Origin: Desulfobulbaceae bacterium
GTDB taxonomy: Bacteria; Desulfobacterota; Desulfobulbia; Desulfobulbales; Desulfocapsaceae
Direction: 5' to 3'
NCBI GenBank assembly: GCA_019163335.1
Contig: JAFLKM010000039.1
Span: 1-50,450, forward strand
Length of the DNA stretch: 50,450 nucleotides
Shown: positions 26,101-34,347 of the stretch, piece by piece
Layout: each line of letters starts with the position of its first letter
Numbering within the stretch: the stretch's first letter is position 1
The notes under the pieces: generated by a model
The model's input: only the letters and a program-made list of their open reading frames with translations
The model's database searches: none
What the model was told of the DNA's origin: nothing
Translations under genes and position numbers: made by a program

Positions 26101-26107
26101 AACTAAA

Positions 26108-26143
26108 CAAAAAAGCACCTAACTCAAAGTGAGCTAAGTGCTT
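26108..26143 (-). terminator. Original host terminator of tRNA-Lys, displaced by the insertion
   Basis: On the minus strand a 31-base hairpin (26113-26143) is followed by a T-rich run. Its stem is identical to the terminator after tRNA-Phe at 50410-50440; the two differ at one loop-side base. It therefore looks like the resident host terminator. It is now 8.1 kb from the tRNA it once served. Confidence 0.75.
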
Positions 26144-26151
26144 GATTTTAT

Positions 26152-26200
26152 TGGTGGGCCGTCCCGGACTCGAACCGGGAACCTGCTGATTAAGAGTCAG
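26152..26200 (-). repeat. Left att core: 3' part of tRNA-Lys
   Basis: These 49 bases are identical to 34272-34320 and cover tRNA-Lys from the anticodon loop through CCA. After 26200 the match to the tRNA ends. This is the tRNA fragment left behind by integration. Confidence 0.93.
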
Positions 26201-26418: not shown

Positions 26419-27618
26419 ATGAGCAAAGAAAATACCTTCAATTTTACCGATGAGCGATTAAGGAATATCCCAACACCTGACCCCGGCAAGCGAGATTATT
26501 ACAACGACACCACCGAAAAAGGGCTACGCTTGTCGGTGTCCGGAACCGGCGTGAAGTCCTTCCAGTTTCAAAGATGGAGTTCTGAAAAGCAACGGCCCGT
26601 TATTGTCACCCTGGGTAAGTGGCCGGACTTTCCGCTGCATGCAGCAAGGGAGAAGGCGAACGCGTTAAAGCAGGAAGTCAACGTCGGGAAAGATCCTCAA
26701 ACTGAGAAACGGGAAAAACGCGAAACCATGACCGTGGCGGCAATCCTTGATCTGTATATCACCGAACATGCCATTCCTCATAAGCGATCCGCAAAGGATG
26801 ACCAGGCGGCAATCCGCCTGCACCTAAAGCCAACATTCGGCACCAGGCGCACCAACGAGCTGGCCCCTGAATCTGTACGATCCTGGCATAACGGCCTGAC
26901 CAAGATCATGAAAGAGGCATCCGCTAACCGTTACCTGGCATTGTTGCGATCCGTTTATAACGTTATGCTTCCCGACCTGCCGAATCCATGCCGTGGCGTC
27001 AAGATGTTTAAGGAATATTCCAGGGACAGGTTCTTGCAGCCAGAAGAGCTTGAAAGATTCTTTCAGGCCATAGAGCATGAACGCACCACCGGGAATCCTG
27101 ATATTGCCGACTACCTGCTGTTGAGTATCTTCTCTGGCGCAAGGAGAGCCAACGTGCTGGCCATGCAATGGAATGATGTTGATTTTAATCGGGAACAGTG
27201 GCGCATTGCTGGCGAGGACTCGAAAAATAAGAGCATCATGCTTGTTCCTCTGGTTGGTGAAGTCCTGGAGATTTTGACCAGGCGGCGGCTGACTGCCTCC
27301 AGTGTCTTTGTCTTTCCGAGTTATGGGAAGACCGGGCACATGGTAGAACCAAAAGCGGGATGGGACAGGATAAAAAAGACCGCTGGTCTTGTTGATGTCC
27401 GCCTGCACGATCTGCGTAGAACCATGGGCAGTTATCAGACCATCAGCGGGGCGTCAACGGCCATTGTCGGTAAAACCCTGGGACACAAGAGCCCGGCATC
27501 AACGGCGGTTTACGCAAGGATGACCCTTGACCCTGTCCGTGAATCAATGGAAAAGGCAGTGGCCTTGATGAAGACACCAGTGGAAAAGAAAGTTGTGAAT
27601 ATTTCCGGCAAGCAATAG
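26419..27618 (+). CDS. int: Tyrosine integrase, P4/DUF4102 type
   Basis: The 399-residue recombinase integrates and excises the element at tRNA-Lys. Residues 1-90 form the DUF4102 arm-binding domain (GLRLSVSGTGVKSFQF, ITVTLGKWP-like VTLGKWPDFPL), 100-190 the core-binding domain, and the rest the catalytic domain. Catalytic residues are visible: R243 in SGARRANVL, H330 and R333 in LHDLRR, H356 in LGHKSPAST, and the nucleophile Y365 in VYARM. The ATG has AAAAAGGAC upstream. It starts 219 bases from the att core and reads into the element. Family members of this type nearly always use tRNA 3' ends, in keeping with the att structure. Confidence 0.95.
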   Translation: MSKENTFNFTDERLRNIPTPDPGKRDYYNDTTEKGLRLSVSGTGVKSFQFQRWSSEKQRPVIVTLGKWPDFPLHAAREKANALKQEVNVGKDPQTEKREKRETMTVAAILDLYITEHAIPHKRSAKDDQAAIRLHLKPTFGTRRTNELAPESVRSWHNGLTKIMKEASANRYLALLRSVYNVMLPDLPNPCRGVKMFKEYSRDRFLQPEELERFFQAIEHERTTGNPDIADYLLLSIFSGARRANVLAMQWNDVDFNREQWRIAGEDSKNKSIMLVPLVGEVLEILTRRRLTASSVFVFPSYGKTGHMVEPKAGWDRIKKTAGLVDVRLHDLRRTMGSYQTISGASTAIVGKTLGHKSPASTAVYARMTLDPVRESMEKAVALMKTPVEKKVVNISGKQ

Positions 27619-29093: not shown

Positions 29094-29318
29094 ATGGAAC
29101 ATTTCAACGGCACCACATCTGCACCACAAGCACCTATCATTCCGTTGGTCATGAATGACGTTCAAGCGGCGGAATACCTGGGCATCTCCCCCCACACTCT
29201 CAGAAAATGGCGTTCTACCGGCAGCACCGGCCCGGCCTATGTATGCGTTGGCAGGTTGAAGAAATACCGCCTGTCCGACCTGGTAGCTTACGCACAATCT
29301 CAGACAGTCGCTCGGTAA
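29094..29318 (+). CDS. AlpA/excisionase-like helix-turn-helix protein
   Basis: The 74-residue protein is one winged HTH_17 domain: MNDVQAAEYLGISPHTLRKWRSTGSTGPAYVCVGRLKKYRLSDLVAY spans residues 20-66, with the YLGIS turn, the recognition helix HTLRKWRS and the wing that ends KKYRLSDL. This form is found in AlpA of P4-like satellites and in Xis proteins, which activate integrase or late genes and assist excision. I start it at ATG 29094, behind AAAAGGAGTC. The array at 28956-28999 and the hairpin at 29036-29067 lie directly upstream, so it may regulate itself. Confidence 0.82.
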   Translation: MEHFNGTTSAPQAPIIPLVMNDVQAAEYLGISPHTLRKWRSTGSTGPAYVCVGRLKKYRLSDLVAYAQSQTVAR

Positions 29319-29375: not shown

Positions 29376-29496
29376 CAAACTTCGAACAGAATAATACTTT
29401 GTTTGTTCGTAAGATTCAAGCATGGGCACTTCTTTTTGCATGCCTGGTTGGTTCAGTCGCGTATTGTGCCGGAATGGTTTTGGGGGGGCTTTTTTT

Positions 29497-31794
29497 ATGA
29501 ACCTTGCCAATGCAGCAATCACCCTTCTGAACTGTCGTTTATCGGTAATCCCATGCGGGCCCGATAAAAAATGCACCCTTAATTCCTGGAAGCCCTACCA
29601 GTCCGAACTGATGACCGAGGCAGAGGCACGAAAGTTTTTCGCCAATGCTGAACGTTTAGCTATTATCGGAGGCGCGGTCTCTGGAAATCTTGAGTGCCTG
29701 GACTTTGATGATCCTACCACCTACGAGCCATTTCTTGACCTTCTGGAAATGTGCGCCCCTGGACTACCTGCAAAGCTGCTGAAGCGATCTACACCGTCCG
29801 GCGGCTTCCATGTCGTTTACCGATGCACTGAGCCCGTGGCGGGTAATCTGAAGCTTGCTGTTGATGCTGCCGGTCAAGTCAGAATCGAGACCAGGGGAGA
29901 GGGCGGTTATTTTCTTTCGCCACCATCACCAGGCTATAAAGTCCTTCAGGGTTCAATGACAGACTGCCCGACGATCACACCCCAAGAGCGGCAGGCGATC
30001 CATCAGACGGCCAAAGCTTTTGATTTGAGAGAGGCAAAAGTCAGACCATCAAAACCAACGGCAAGCCTCTGCAAGATGAGCGAAGGCGATACACCGGGGA
30101 GCCGGTTCAACGAGGCGCATCCTGTTGCCGACATACTGGGGGCTCATGGCTGGAGGGAAGACCGGAAGACCACGGCAGGTATGGGCTGGATTCGACCGGG
30201 GAAGGATAGTGGCACCAGTGGCGTACTGCTGAATAATGGAAATTTCTATGTCTTCAGCTCAAACGCGGCACCTCTGGAACCATGGCGGTCTTATGACGCT
30301 TTCGGCCTCTTCACAATGTACAATCATGCAGGCGATTTTGCAGCGGCGGCGCGGGAACTAGCAGGGTCAGCACCAAAGGCCAGCACTGTTATGGAATGGG
30401 AGCCGACGACACCGGAATGGCCGGTCATGGATCAAAGGGCTTATCGGGGGATAGCCAAAGATTTTATTGAGCTTGCCACCAGGGACAGCGAGGCAGACCC
30501 GGCGGCTATACTTGCAACATTTATTGTTCGTTTTGGCGTGGAGGTTGGCCCTGACATCTTCATGAATGTAGGTGATACAAAGCACCGGTCTAGGTTGGCG
30601 ACGGTTGTTGTTGGTGCCTCTGGCAAATCTCGCAAGGGCACCAGTGGGAAACCTGTCTCAAAGCTGTATGAACTTATCAATGTAGATAAGAATACTCCAT
30701 ATTTCCCGGCACGATCCAGCAAAGGCCCTTTTTCAAGTGGTGAGGGAATTATTCACGCTATTCGTGATGCCGTAAGCAAATGGGATTCTAATGGCCAGTG
30801 CGAGGTTGTTGTCGATCCAGGCGTTGAGGACAAACGGCTATTTGTTCTTGATGAGGAATTCGGTGGAGTCCTGGCAAACACCAAAAGAGAGGGCAACACC
30901 CTTTCAATGATTATCCGGCAGGCATGGGACAGCGGGAACTTTGACCCCCTGACCAAGAACAATAAGACCACTGCCACCGGTGGACATGTTGGATGGGTTT
31001 CCCATATCACCATTCAAGAGCTACACGCAAAACTTAACGAGTCTGAAGGGTTCAATGGTTTTGCAAACCGGATTCTCTGGATATGCGCCAAACGCTCAAA
31101 GCTGATACCAGACCCACAACCAATGCCGGAGCCAGAGCTTCTTGAAATTAAAGAAAAGCTGATACGGATTCTGAGGCAGGTAAGAGGTGCTACCGTGGTC
31201 AAGATGAGCCTTGCAGCAAGACAGGCATGGCGAGAAAACTACTATGCAGACCTGACCAAAGACCGACCTGGGCTTATGGGATGTGTGACAAATCGCGGGG
31301 AGGCTCAAGCTCTGAGGTTGGCAATGATCTACTGCTTGCTTGATGGGGAAACAGAGATCACACTTGACCACCTGGAAGCAGGAATAGCCTTCTGGGATTA
31401 TTGCAGGCAATCAGCGGCATATATTTTTCATGGCAGGCAAACCGACACCACCGCACAGACCATCCTTGAAGCATTAAAAAATGGTCCACTTTCTGGGACA
31501 GAAATACATGGTCTATTCCAGAACAACGTCACCAAGGGCAGGTTAGAATCTGCACTTTCTGAACTCATCGCATCGAACCAGGTAATTTTTGAGAAGCAGA
31601 GAAACCACAGGGGAGCCCCGACAAAGATATACCGTTTTTCTCAAGACACCCTACGAATTAAACGAATTAACGAATTAAATACCCCGGATGTTGACCCTGA
31701 CCCGATTAAATTAGTTAATTCGTTTAATTCGTTAAGCGATTCAAAAATTGACGATCAGGTTAACGACGACGAAATGGAGGTAACTGACCTATGA
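29497..31794 (+). CDS. Prim-pol / DUF3987 replication protein (primase-helicase-like)
   Basis: The 765-residue protein is the element's likely replication initiator. Residues 1-170 are a bifunctional primase-polymerase (archaeo-eukaryotic primase fold) with D69 and D71 in ECLDFDD, and H105 in STPSGGFHVVYR, then ETRGEGGYFLSPPS. Residues about 300-660 are a DUF3987 ATPase-like domain with a Walker A-like GASGKSRKGTSGK (from 373) and VLDEEFGGVL. The C-terminal part holds a winged-helix-like segment (EIHGLFQNNVTKGRLESALSELI). I start it at ATG 29497, preceded by GGGGGGG, rather than the upstream ATG 29422. The 3' end encodes the repeat array at 31654-31731. The stop overlaps the next start by four bases (ATGA). 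Confidence 0.87.
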   Translation: MNLANAAITLLNCRLSVIPCGPDKKCTLNSWKPYQSELMTEAEARKFFANAERLAIIGGAVSGNLECLDFDDPTTYEPFLDLLEMCAPGLPAKLLKRSTPSGGFHVVYRCTEPVAGNLKLAVDAAGQVRIETRGEGGYFLSPPSPGYKVLQGSMTDCPTITPQERQAIHQTAKAFDLREAKVRPSKPTASLCKMSEGDTPGSRFNEAHPVADILGAHGWREDRKTTAGMGWIRPGKDSGTSGVLLNNGNFYVFSSNAAPLEPWRSYDAFGLFTMYNHAGDFAAAARELAGSAPKASTVMEWEPTTPEWPVMDQRAYRGIAKDFIELATRDSEADPAAILATFIVRFGVEVGPDIFMNVGDTKHRSRLATVVVGASGKSRKGTSGKPVSKLYELINVDKNTPYFPARSSKGPFSSGEGIIHAIRDAVSKWDSNGQCEVVVDPGVEDKRLFVLDEEFGGVLANTKREGNTLSMIIRQAWDSGNFDPLTKNNKTTATGGHVGWVSHITIQELHAKLNESEGFNGFANRILWICAKRSKLIPDPQPMPEPELLEIKEKLIRILRQVRGATVVKMSLAARQAWRENYYADLTKDRPGLMGCVTNRGEAQALRLAMIYCLLDGETEITLDHLEAGIAFWDYCRQSAAYIFHGRQTDTTAQTILEALKNGPLSGTEIHGLFQNNVTKGRLESALSELIASNQVIFEKQRNHRGAPTKIYRFSQDTLRIKRINELNTPDVDPDPIKLVNSFNSLSDSKIDDQVNDDEMEVTDL
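31654..31731. repeat. Iteron-like inverted array in the 3' end of the replication gene
   Basis: CGAATTAA occurs three times as direct repeats (31654-31661, 31663-31670, 31671-31678) and twice in inverse form TTAATTCG (31715-31722, 31724-31731). The 17-base arm 31654-31670 is the exact reverse complement of 31715-31731. It is AT-rich and close to the initiator-type gene, which suits an origin of replication or an autoregulatory site. Function is inferred. Confidence 0.7.
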
Positions 31795-32276
31795 ACGCAC
31801 TCCAAATCATCAGAGATGTTGAATCACATGGCGGCAAGATTTATCTCCTCGACGGTAACCTGAAGATGGCCAGCAAGAAGGGGATAATACCACCCCCATT
31901 GTTGGCAGAGGTGAAGAACCATAAACCTGAGATCATCCACTTTCTATCATTGGCGATGAATCCTGAGCCTTCAAAATTGAATGCACCTATCAAGGAGCCC
32001 CGACTTTTAGGTTCTGTTGTATCACCGGCAGCAGTGGCATGGTTGCAAGATCACCGGCAAGACCTGAAGGAGGCAGGCTGGCCAGCTTCCCAGTTATGGA
32101 GACGGAACAAGTCAAAGGGTATCGCCTGGAGTCCGATGTGGACAAAGAGCTTTCTAAAAGTGACCCTGCTTGATTCTGGCGCTATCGAATTTGAGTTTGT
32201 CGACGGCGGAAAAGACTGCATCAATAAGGCATATCCAATGCCACAGAGACCAACGAAAAAGGAGTCCGGAAAATGA
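31791..32276 (+). CDS. TubC-N-like domain protein of the element
   Basis: The 161-residue protein begins with a domain of about 55 residues (ALQIIRDVESHGGKIYLLDG, then ASKKGIIPPPLLAEVKNHKPEIIHFL). It looks like the TubC N-terminal docking domain known from polyketide and peptide synthetases and also seen next to primases in mobile elements. The second half (80-161) is basic with several Trp (VAWLQDHRQDLKEAGWPASQLWRRN) and is unknown to me. Its start overlaps the replication gene stop and its own stop overlaps the SSB start, so the three are translationally coupled. A role as a docking or adaptor protein of the replication module is inferred. Confidence 0.65.
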   Translation: MNALQIIRDVESHGGKIYLLDGNLKMASKKGIIPPPLLAEVKNHKPEIIHFLSLAMNPEPSKLNAPIKEPRLLGSVVSPAAVAWLQDHRQDLKEAGWPASQLWRRNKSKGIAWSPMWTKSFLKVTLLDSGAIEFEFVDGGKDCINKAYPMPQRPTKKESGK

Positions 32277-32635
32277 CAGATAAAAACGAATGTAACATAT
32301 CCGGCAAGGTTGAAGGCTTCCAGATCATCGCCACCAAAACTGGAACTTCGATGATAAAATTCCGCGTGCTCTGCAATAAGGAGAAAATTTCCATTGTCGC
32401 TTTTAGGGAGCTGGCTGACGCAACACGGCTTAATGATGGCGAAGAGGTCTTTATCACTGGAGCGATTCAGACAACGAGCTGGCAGGACAAAAACGGCGTT
32501 CAGCGATATGGTTTTCAGATCATCGCAAACAAGATAAACGACAACGGAGAGGAAACCTTTACCCCGGCAGCTGATAAAGCAACACCTGCACCCAAAAGGG
32601 CGCCGGTACAACCATATGCTGGAGGGCCTTTCTGA
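32273..32635 (+). CDS. ssb: Single-stranded DNA-binding protein of the element
   Basis: The 120-residue protein is an OB-fold SSB-like protein: NISGKVEGFQIIATKTGTSMIKFRVLC, then ISIVAFRELADATRLNDGEEVFITGAI and the RYGFQIIANKI strand. The usual acidic tail (DDDIPF type) is reduced to a Pro/Lys/Ala tail that ends YAGGPF: the final Pro-Phe is kept but the acidic residues are not. Genes before and after overlap it (ATGA at its start; its TGA shares one base with the next ATG). It likely coats DNA during element replication with the prim-pol protein. Confidence 0.78.
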   Translation: MTDKNECNISGKVEGFQIIATKTGTSMIKFRVLCNKEKISIVAFRELADATRLNDGEEVFITGAIQTTSWQDKNGVQRYGFQIIANKINDNGEETFTPAADKATPAPKRAPVQPYAGGPF

Positions 32636-34225: not shown

Positions 34226-34263
34226 AACAAAAAAGCACCTAATCCGATGTGGACTAAGTGCTT
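34226..34263 (-). terminator. Terminator of tRNA-Lys supplied by the element
   Basis: A 31-base hairpin (34233-34263) followed on the minus strand by a T run. The outer stem matches the host copies at 26113 and 50410, but the inner stem differs at paired positions so that pairing is kept. It replaces the displaced host terminator. Confidence 0.8.
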
Positions 34264-34271
34264 GAATTTAC

Positions 34272-34347
34272 TGGTGGGCCGTCCCGGACTCGAACCGGGA
34301 ACCTGCTGATTAAGAGTCAGATGCTCTACCAATTGAGCTAACGGCCC
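34272..34347 (-). tRNA. tRNA-Lys (CTT)
   Basis: The 76-base gene on the minus strand has acceptor stem GGGCCGT/ACGGCCC, D-arm AGCTCAATTGGTAGAGC, anticodon stem-loop CTGACTCTTAATCAG with anticodon CTT, T-arm CCGGTTCGAGTCCGG and an encoded CCA. The 3' part (34272-34320) is the att core, so this gene is chimeric: 5' part host, 3' part brought by the element. Confidence 0.96.

Follow-up and report, generated by a model that had tools for sequence, protein, structure and literature searches.

Mirrored short repeats within a Prim-Pol/DUF3987 gene: a probable loading site for the helicase of an integrated element

A primase-helicase gene in the window (the whole 50,450-nt stretch of DNA analyzed) ends in a cluster of short direct and inverted repeats, and the question is whether this cluster is a by-product of the coding sequence, a regulatory or structural signal, or an origin carried by the gene for its own protein. 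An original prediction favored an internal origin. The locus was analyzed together with its relatives, and the readings of the array were weighed against these comparisons.

The array, its element, and the encoded protein

Re-reading the sequence gave the copy number originally counted, three direct and two inverted copies of CGAATTAA. The 17-nt arms (CGAATTAAACGAATTAA; 31654–31670 and 31715–31731) are exact reverse complements separated by 44 nt, as had been described, and they were the sole matches with up to two mismatches when the 3.2-Mb assembly was searched. The full inverted repeat is larger than these arms, pairing 31653–31680 with 31705–31732 over 28 nt with 93% complementarity and a 24-nt spacer. 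The array was also said to be AT-rich, which holds for the arms (79% AT) but not for the spacer. Its parts are as follows.

31653–31680, plus strand: left half of the array, three direct copies of (A)CGAATTAA at 31654, 31663, and 31671 (pitch 9 and 8)
31681–31704, no strand: spacer between the half arrays, 24 nt, GC-rich, 33% AT
31705–31732, minus strand: right half of the array, exact inverted copies (TTAATTCG) at 31715 and 31724 plus a degenerate inverted copy at about 31706–31714

The degenerate copy is intact in a homologue (L004/L030). When 120-nt stretches were stepped through the 50-kb window by 20 nt, only the array had an 8-mer with two or more copies on each of the two strands. None of 2000 dinucleotide shuffles of 31641–31745 reached the observed copy count. 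Single-strand folding of the array with DNA parameters gave z = −5.5, and 0 of 200 shuffles folded as well.

The array-bearing gene sits in an element of about 8.1 kb integrated at tRNA-Lys. The features of the element outside this gene are listed below.

26152–26200, plus strand: attL-like direct repeat covering 49 nt at the 3′ end of tRNA-Lys, with no mismatch to the other copy
26419–27618, plus strand: tyrosine integrase of the element (domain match)
29094–29318, plus strand: small HTH_17 regulator, AlpA/excisionase-like (domain match)
32273–32635, plus strand: SSB-like protein (domain match)
34272–34320, plus strand: attR-like repeat, within tRNA-Lys (34272–34347, minus strand)

No loader-like domain is among the hits for the element's genes, several of which gave no domain hit. 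Just inside the attR end, 34226–34272 is a near copy of the hairpin at 26105–26152 beside the other att copy (AACAAAAAAGCACCTAA...AAGTGCTTGA), as if the element brought its own terminator for the tRNA-Lys gene. Repeats of CAAAATATAACTGG lie near both element ends (26321, 26387, and 34202) and are possibly arm-type integrase sites. The small protein encoded by 33170–33646 matches phrog_645, which is labeled RNase E; by eye it resembles the small terminase subunits of phages, a likeness that would be in keeping with a phage satellite.

The gene and its predicted domains are arranged as follows.

29422–31794, plus strand: prim-pol/DUF3987 helicase gene, 790-aa ORF with the array near its 3′ end
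29539–29958, plus strand: PF09250 Prim-Pol domain, residues 40–179, E 1.8e-10
30388–31446, plus strand: DUF3987 helicase core with a predicted MCM-like AAA+ fold (PF13148 match, structure model)
31447–31638, plus strand: predicted winged-helix domain, proposed reader of the repeats (PadR-type fold matches), ending 14 nt before the array
31648–31791, plus strand: codons of the disordered tail, containing the array (model residues 421–468, pLDDT about 30–40)

Comparison with L004 suggests that the real start of the gene is the ATG at 29497 (residue 26). The PF13148 profile match (28.5 bits over residues 471–669, against a curated cut-off of 27) places the protein in DUF3987/YfjI as a divergent branch, canonical members scoring about 250–360 bits. 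A six-frame PF13148 search of 97 related genomes gave no match in the window's own genome. The Pfam entry describes DUF3987 as a protein of unknown function, and its helicase role is a prediction in the part of PMC5862659 covered here. An AlphaFold2 model built from 11 sequences (pLDDT 73) has an AAA+ core, a winged helix at 354–417, and a disordered tail from 421. All 50 of the Foldseek matches listed for this model were MCM or replisome/CMG entries. The predicted ATPase core has the MCM fold (VIA-align Z 18.1, 263 residues, rmsd 3.4), and its structural alignments with MCM are 10–15% identical. By sequence the protein falls outside MCM: the profile search, at E up to 0.05, matched no MCM family, and none of the 9 chains hit at E up to 1 belongs to MCM. 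Modeled alone, the winged helix (pLDDT 83) matched PadR-type winged helices and, at rank 28, replication terminator protein; its sequence gave weak matches to winged-helix regulators (best E 0.0018). The helicase is thus predicted to be MCM-like with a C-terminal winged helix, and the array to encode a disordered tail behind that domain.

The original prediction placed the array within the 3′ end of this gene, in a stretch of low constraint. Both points agree with the model, in which the encoded tail is disordered, and with the relatives, among which the tail is poorly conserved. An array lying in such codons can be kept as DNA without harm to the protein. The direct copies occupy two codon phases (0, 0, 2) and those of the other half are inverted, so the array does not encode one peptide repeat.

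The repeat DNA in relatives of the helicase

Relatives were collected by a protein search of 97 related genomes, 17 of which had a match. Peptide-pattern scans started from the single window protein found no relatives; searches with helicase alignments did, giving 6 loci, 5 loci, and 8 of 257 genomes. Relatives of the window helicase also account for two records in the phages collection and one in the plasmids collection. Two loci come from the genus of the window genome, L005 (on the contig of L029) and L004 (on the contig of L030), their genomes being recorded as Desulfocapsa sp. and Desulfocapsaceae (G005 and G011; L029, L030). Both keep the array. The L004/L030 protein is 65% identical to that of the window, and its direct copies are in codon phases 2, 2, 2 and encode EFNELNELN, compared with RIKRINELN in the window, while all three inverted copies are intact. 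L031 has a stop codon inside the array. Arrays of the window's unit in a 3 + 3 arrangement are found in coding sequence in L032 (62%; one copy degenerate) and L034 (46%). In L037 (34%) a 3 + 3 array of ACGAAGAAA lies entirely 3′ of the stop codon, and arrays after the stop are also present in L038 (AGAGTAAAA) and L036 (TGCGCC). The unit is of the GCGTAA type in L035 and L008/L021 and is GCGAATT in L006/L007/L022. In the clear cases both halves carry the unit of their own locus, so that the arms co-vary between relatives. No array was seen by eye in L039, the most distant member.

It had been set beforehand that the array should persist in homologues whose tail varies, and this is what was observed: frame, sequence, stop codon, and coding status all change while the repeats stay. 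The pattern that would have counted against an origin, repeats lost behind a conserved tail, is the opposite of what the homologues have. As far as sequence comparison goes, these data show that the conserved feature is the DNA of the repeats and not the peptide.

Two further features of these loci were noted. L006 has two inverted arrays about 430 bp apart (1063–1154 and 1517–1578). In front of the one further 3′ is a short ORF repeating the end of the gene; helicase tail and array are here partly duplicated together. The window's own genome has a second helicase relative (G000:C40; L022/L070), apparently frame-broken, with a GCGAATT-type array unlike the window's unit.

The module to which the array belongs was assigned using 15 loci that share with the window only the primase (4), only the helicase (8), or both (3). 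The primase-only loci (L052–L055, 57–70%) all carry short-repeat arrays with unrelated units. Three of them have canonical DUF3987 helicases and the units TGCGACA, TTTTGTCAG, and CTGCAAAAACTG; the fourth, L052, has another, non-matching C-terminal part and many CGCACATT repeats, mostly direct, after the stop of a 649-aa frame. The eight helicase-only loci (L066–L070, 56–63%; L032; L034; and L029, on a contig that begins within the helicase) all have an array in the corresponding place, and its unit contains CGAATT everywhere but in L068/L069 (GCGTAA type). The loci sharing both modules are L065 and L031 (CGAATT) and L035 (GCGTA). Helicase relatives joined to other primases (L006, Toprim; L008, NrS-1 type) likewise keep the array in place. 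By these comparisons the unit is tied to the protein's C-terminal part and not to the primase. The array of L052 stands behind a different C-terminal part, and such arrays are therefore not exclusive to DUF3987 helicases; this locus strengthens the case made from the modules and also extends the phenomenon past DUF3987.

Mantel tests were used to compare array similarity with protein similarity. Array similarity tracks that of the winged helix (r 0.64, n = 44, 0 of 2000 permutations), but the helicase core performs nearly equally (0.63), and the correlation between core and winged helix is 0.91. The winged helix is tracked by control DNA as well, more weakly (r 0.36, 0 of 2000 permutations). 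Part of the signal is thus shared descent, and the winged helix, statistically inseparable from the core at n = 44, is not proven to be the reader. L095 and L097 have very similar proteins and different arrays. Twenty-five loci were excluded from the set by hand (no array by eye, poorly caught array, or unusable frame) and two by a score below 9, and the exclusions by hand favor array-bearing loci.

Arrays in the DUF3987/YfjI family at large

PF13148 matches came from 12 of the 97 related genomes and, across the phylum, from 46 of 395, and a canonical DUF3987 query returned 2 records from the phages collection and 41 from the plasmids collection. Inverted repeats were scored from −350 to +250 around the stop codon, with upstream DNA, downstream DNA, and shuffles as controls. 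The family set held 57 loci, or 55 without L101 and L108, which have short downstream sequence. Near-identical loci were counted separately (L096/L099/L127 and L132/L134/L136). Left out by hand were L085–L088, L106, and L111 (pieces without the helicase C terminus, or members of the window clade), search rows ending before profile position 355, and a 120-nt piece on G471:C235. L144 is poorly placed because its frame runs 260 codons beyond the match. A score of at least 13 was reached by 26 of the 55 loci, compared with 0/55 upstream, 1/44 downstream, and 2/550 shuffles; inspection by eye showed three of these loci (L115, L130, and L135) to have other hairpins. In the 16-member window clade, scores of at least 12 were found at 13 loci (0/16 upstream, 1/13 downstream, 1/160 shuffles) and of at least 13 at 10 loci (0/16, 0/13, and 0/160).

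A 6-mer test over −150 to +250 gave T of at least 6 in 18/55 family loci versus 1/55 and 0/48 in controls, and in 5/15 clade loci (L032 has short downstream sequence) versus 0/15 and 0/13. In this stretch the arrays of L006, L007, L008, L021, and L022 are missed or contribute too few exact copies, and a T of 5 was reached in 1.3% and 3.2% of shuffles. Among 14 further records (L116–L126 and L149–L151), six had T of at least 5 (L117, L118, L120, L126, L149, and L151); the same threshold was reached by 0/14 upstream and 2/14 downstream controls (L119 and L150, both at T = 6). L125 has an inverted repeat scoring 14, yet T = 4, and by eye, directly oriented TGTCGCCAC repeats are seen on the Pseudomonas putida plasmid L119. 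Units in the clear arrays are mostly 8–10 nt apart with one switch of orientation, and some arrays are interleaved (L131 and L137).

Roughly half of the family loci have no clear array by the inverted-repeat and 6-mer tests. None was seen by eye at Escherichia coli K-12 yfjI or at L121–L124, of which L121 and L124 have single hairpins. The YfjI genes of L122 and L123, as well as those of L116 and K-12, have no array by eye and precede a gene with the annotation inovirus Gp2-like (in K-12, yfjJ); YfjI genes in this setting may rely on another initiator. At L075, L072, L073, and L149 an array after the helicase stop apparently continues into the opening codons of the following frame; such arrays would give repetitive N termini, and database peptide repeats of that kind may mark origin-like arrays.

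Single records with an array from a Streptomyces plasmid, a Streptococcus phage, a gut phage, and two Psychrobacter plasmids suggest that the spread reaches beyond the phylum. Both Psychrobacter plasmids also carry RepM, and the array therefore need not be their origin. GC skew, proposed originally as a check, was calculated for four circular plasmids with DUF3987 and placed no origin at the array. Over 37 loci the spacers have a mean AT fraction of 0.49, compared with 0.52 and 0.49 in the flanks and 0.64 in the arms; this set comprised loci scoring at least 12 with 5 excluded by eye, and it retained L145, which has no array by eye.

We lean, by somewhat better than even odds, toward a general statement: DUF3987/YfjI proteins are widespread self-loading MCM-fold helicases of mobile elements with their own portable origin, about 3 + 3 mirrored short repeats at a pitch of about 9 nt, placed directly behind the gene or inside its codons after the winged helix, with a unit that changes in concert across its copies as the helicase diverges. 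If this is true, sequence alone could be enough to locate the origin in many integrated elements, phages, and plasmids that have not been studied. A cognate origin-like array would give DUF3987 a concrete, testable role as an origin-reading helicase. In the open-access literature searched, with partial coverage of the papers that name DUF3987, no description of iterons at DUF3987 genes was found.

A probable loading site and its relation to known systems

The reading that best accounts for the window array, at a probability of roughly 0.7, is that the element's own helicase, predicted to be MCM-like with a winged helix, recognizes it and loads there, which would make it in effect the origin of replication, with two facing rings and a bidirectional start. 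Copies of the Prim-Pol/DUF3987 protein would bind the two oppositely oriented sets of 8–9-nt repeats through the C-terminal winged helix, two MCM-like rings would assemble face to face over the array and open the DNA there, and the attached primase would start synthesis in both directions, at both forks. Binding by the winged helix, the number of rings, melting, and bidirectional replication are inferred. There is no AT-rich center, and the AT-rich arms are a candidate place of opening. The internal origin originally proposed gains support from the retention of the array across homologues and from the like architecture behind many other DUF3987 helicases; for this particular array we infer it.

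An autoregulatory operator or a copy-control (incompatibility) site, bound by the helicase protein or by the AlpA-like regulator, is an unlikely alternative. The PadR/MarR-type winged helices matched by the model are known repressors, and the array occupies a gene junction in many relatives. Up to six copies at a pitch of about 9 nt are unusual for an operator, and the array is located not upstream of the initiator gene but at its 3′ end, 14 nt past the winged-helix codons. At a like position, the analogue described in the literature is an origin (PMC7581432, in the part covered).

There is a slight chance that the element uses the array for partition, termination, or recombination. Short repeated sites are known also from centromere-like and terminator sites, and the rank-28 match of the winged-helix model to replication terminator protein points the same way. 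Against this are the association of the array with the helicase module, the lack of a ParA/ParB domain among the hits for the element's genes (several of them without a hit), and the different sequence of the repeats at the element ends.

Selection for an RNA hairpin (attenuator, terminator, or mRNA stabilizer) rather than a DNA site is marginally less probable still. Its strong pairing potential (the z of −5.5, with DNA parameters) and the co-variation of the arms would be expected of a hairpin, but each arm is a tandem of like 8–9-nt units, and a hairpin needs no internal direct repeats. The interleaved orientations in L131 and L137 and the mostly direct copies in L052 also oppose this reading. 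With no U-tract after the array in 31653–31745 and direct repeats in both arms, it does not have the form of an intrinsic terminator, and the terminator-like hairpins of the family (L129, L130, and L133) look different and are without repeats. A low-complexity by-product of a repetitive AT-rich tail, or chance, is very improbable: the tail is indeed disordered and poorly conserved, but arrays persist as non-coding DNA in relatives and the shuffles never reached the count. A peptide repeat, an RNA hairpin, a terminator, and integrase arm sites were the identities considered and rejected for the array.

The proposed loading site was compared with known replication systems. MCM replicative helicases carry a C-terminal winged helix, and the window protein would share with them this domain and the AAA+ core fold, both as predicted by the model; unlike MCM, it is a mobile-element protein fused to a primase. 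Classical Rep_3-type iteron plasmids also have repeats beside or in the initiator gene, but their direct repeats are longer and their Rep is without a helicase. In the window, no Rep_3 domain is among the hits, the units are 8–9 nt and mirrored, and the proposed initiator is a helicase. The PICMI satellites of Vibrionaceae are similar small integrase-AlpA-primase satellites; PF13148 is among the primase profiles of the PICMI model, prim deletion lowers copy number, and the word iteron is absent from the main text as covered here (PMC10803314, in part). The SCCmec helicase Cch2 has its binding site, a set of short direct repeats, downstream of the gene that encodes it, a layout like that of the window, but it is a D5-family helicase with three 5-nt iterons, and deletion of the inverted repeats left its binding unaffected (PMC7581432, in the part covered). 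Work on MCM-like Cch (2016) and on the SaPI Rep structure (2022) was followed through portions of papers citing it (PMC10061031, PMC10516667, and PMC7581432).

The closest likeness is to SaPI and PICI elements, which have integrase, AlpA-like, and primase/helicase genes as the window does. In SaPIs, the initiator helicase Rep reads, through its C-terminal domain, iteron arrays that lie immediately 3′ of its own gene (PMC7581432, in part), and the rep-ori segment of the Gram-negative PICI EcCICFT073 was assayed for plasmid maintenance (PMC6092414, in part). The published EcCICFT073 origin region scores T = 11 in our 6-mer test. With these systems the window has in common short iterons placed where the initiator helicase gene ends, their division into two sets of opposite orientation, and a predicted C-terminal winged helix as the putative DNA-binding domain of the initiator. 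It differs in three respects. The array overlaps the gene's 3′ end and lies inside coding sequence, unlike the SaPI/PICI origin; the spacer between the sets is 33% AT, whereas SaPI/PICI origins have an AT-rich region there; and the initiator is Prim-Pol plus DUF3987 rather than D5/DUF5906 (or DUF927), the CFT073 PICI pri-rep being D5_N/DUF5906/Pox_D5. The element has the rep-ori layout of PICI/SaPI with a different initiator family and a different center, and it is not classed as a member of the PICIs.
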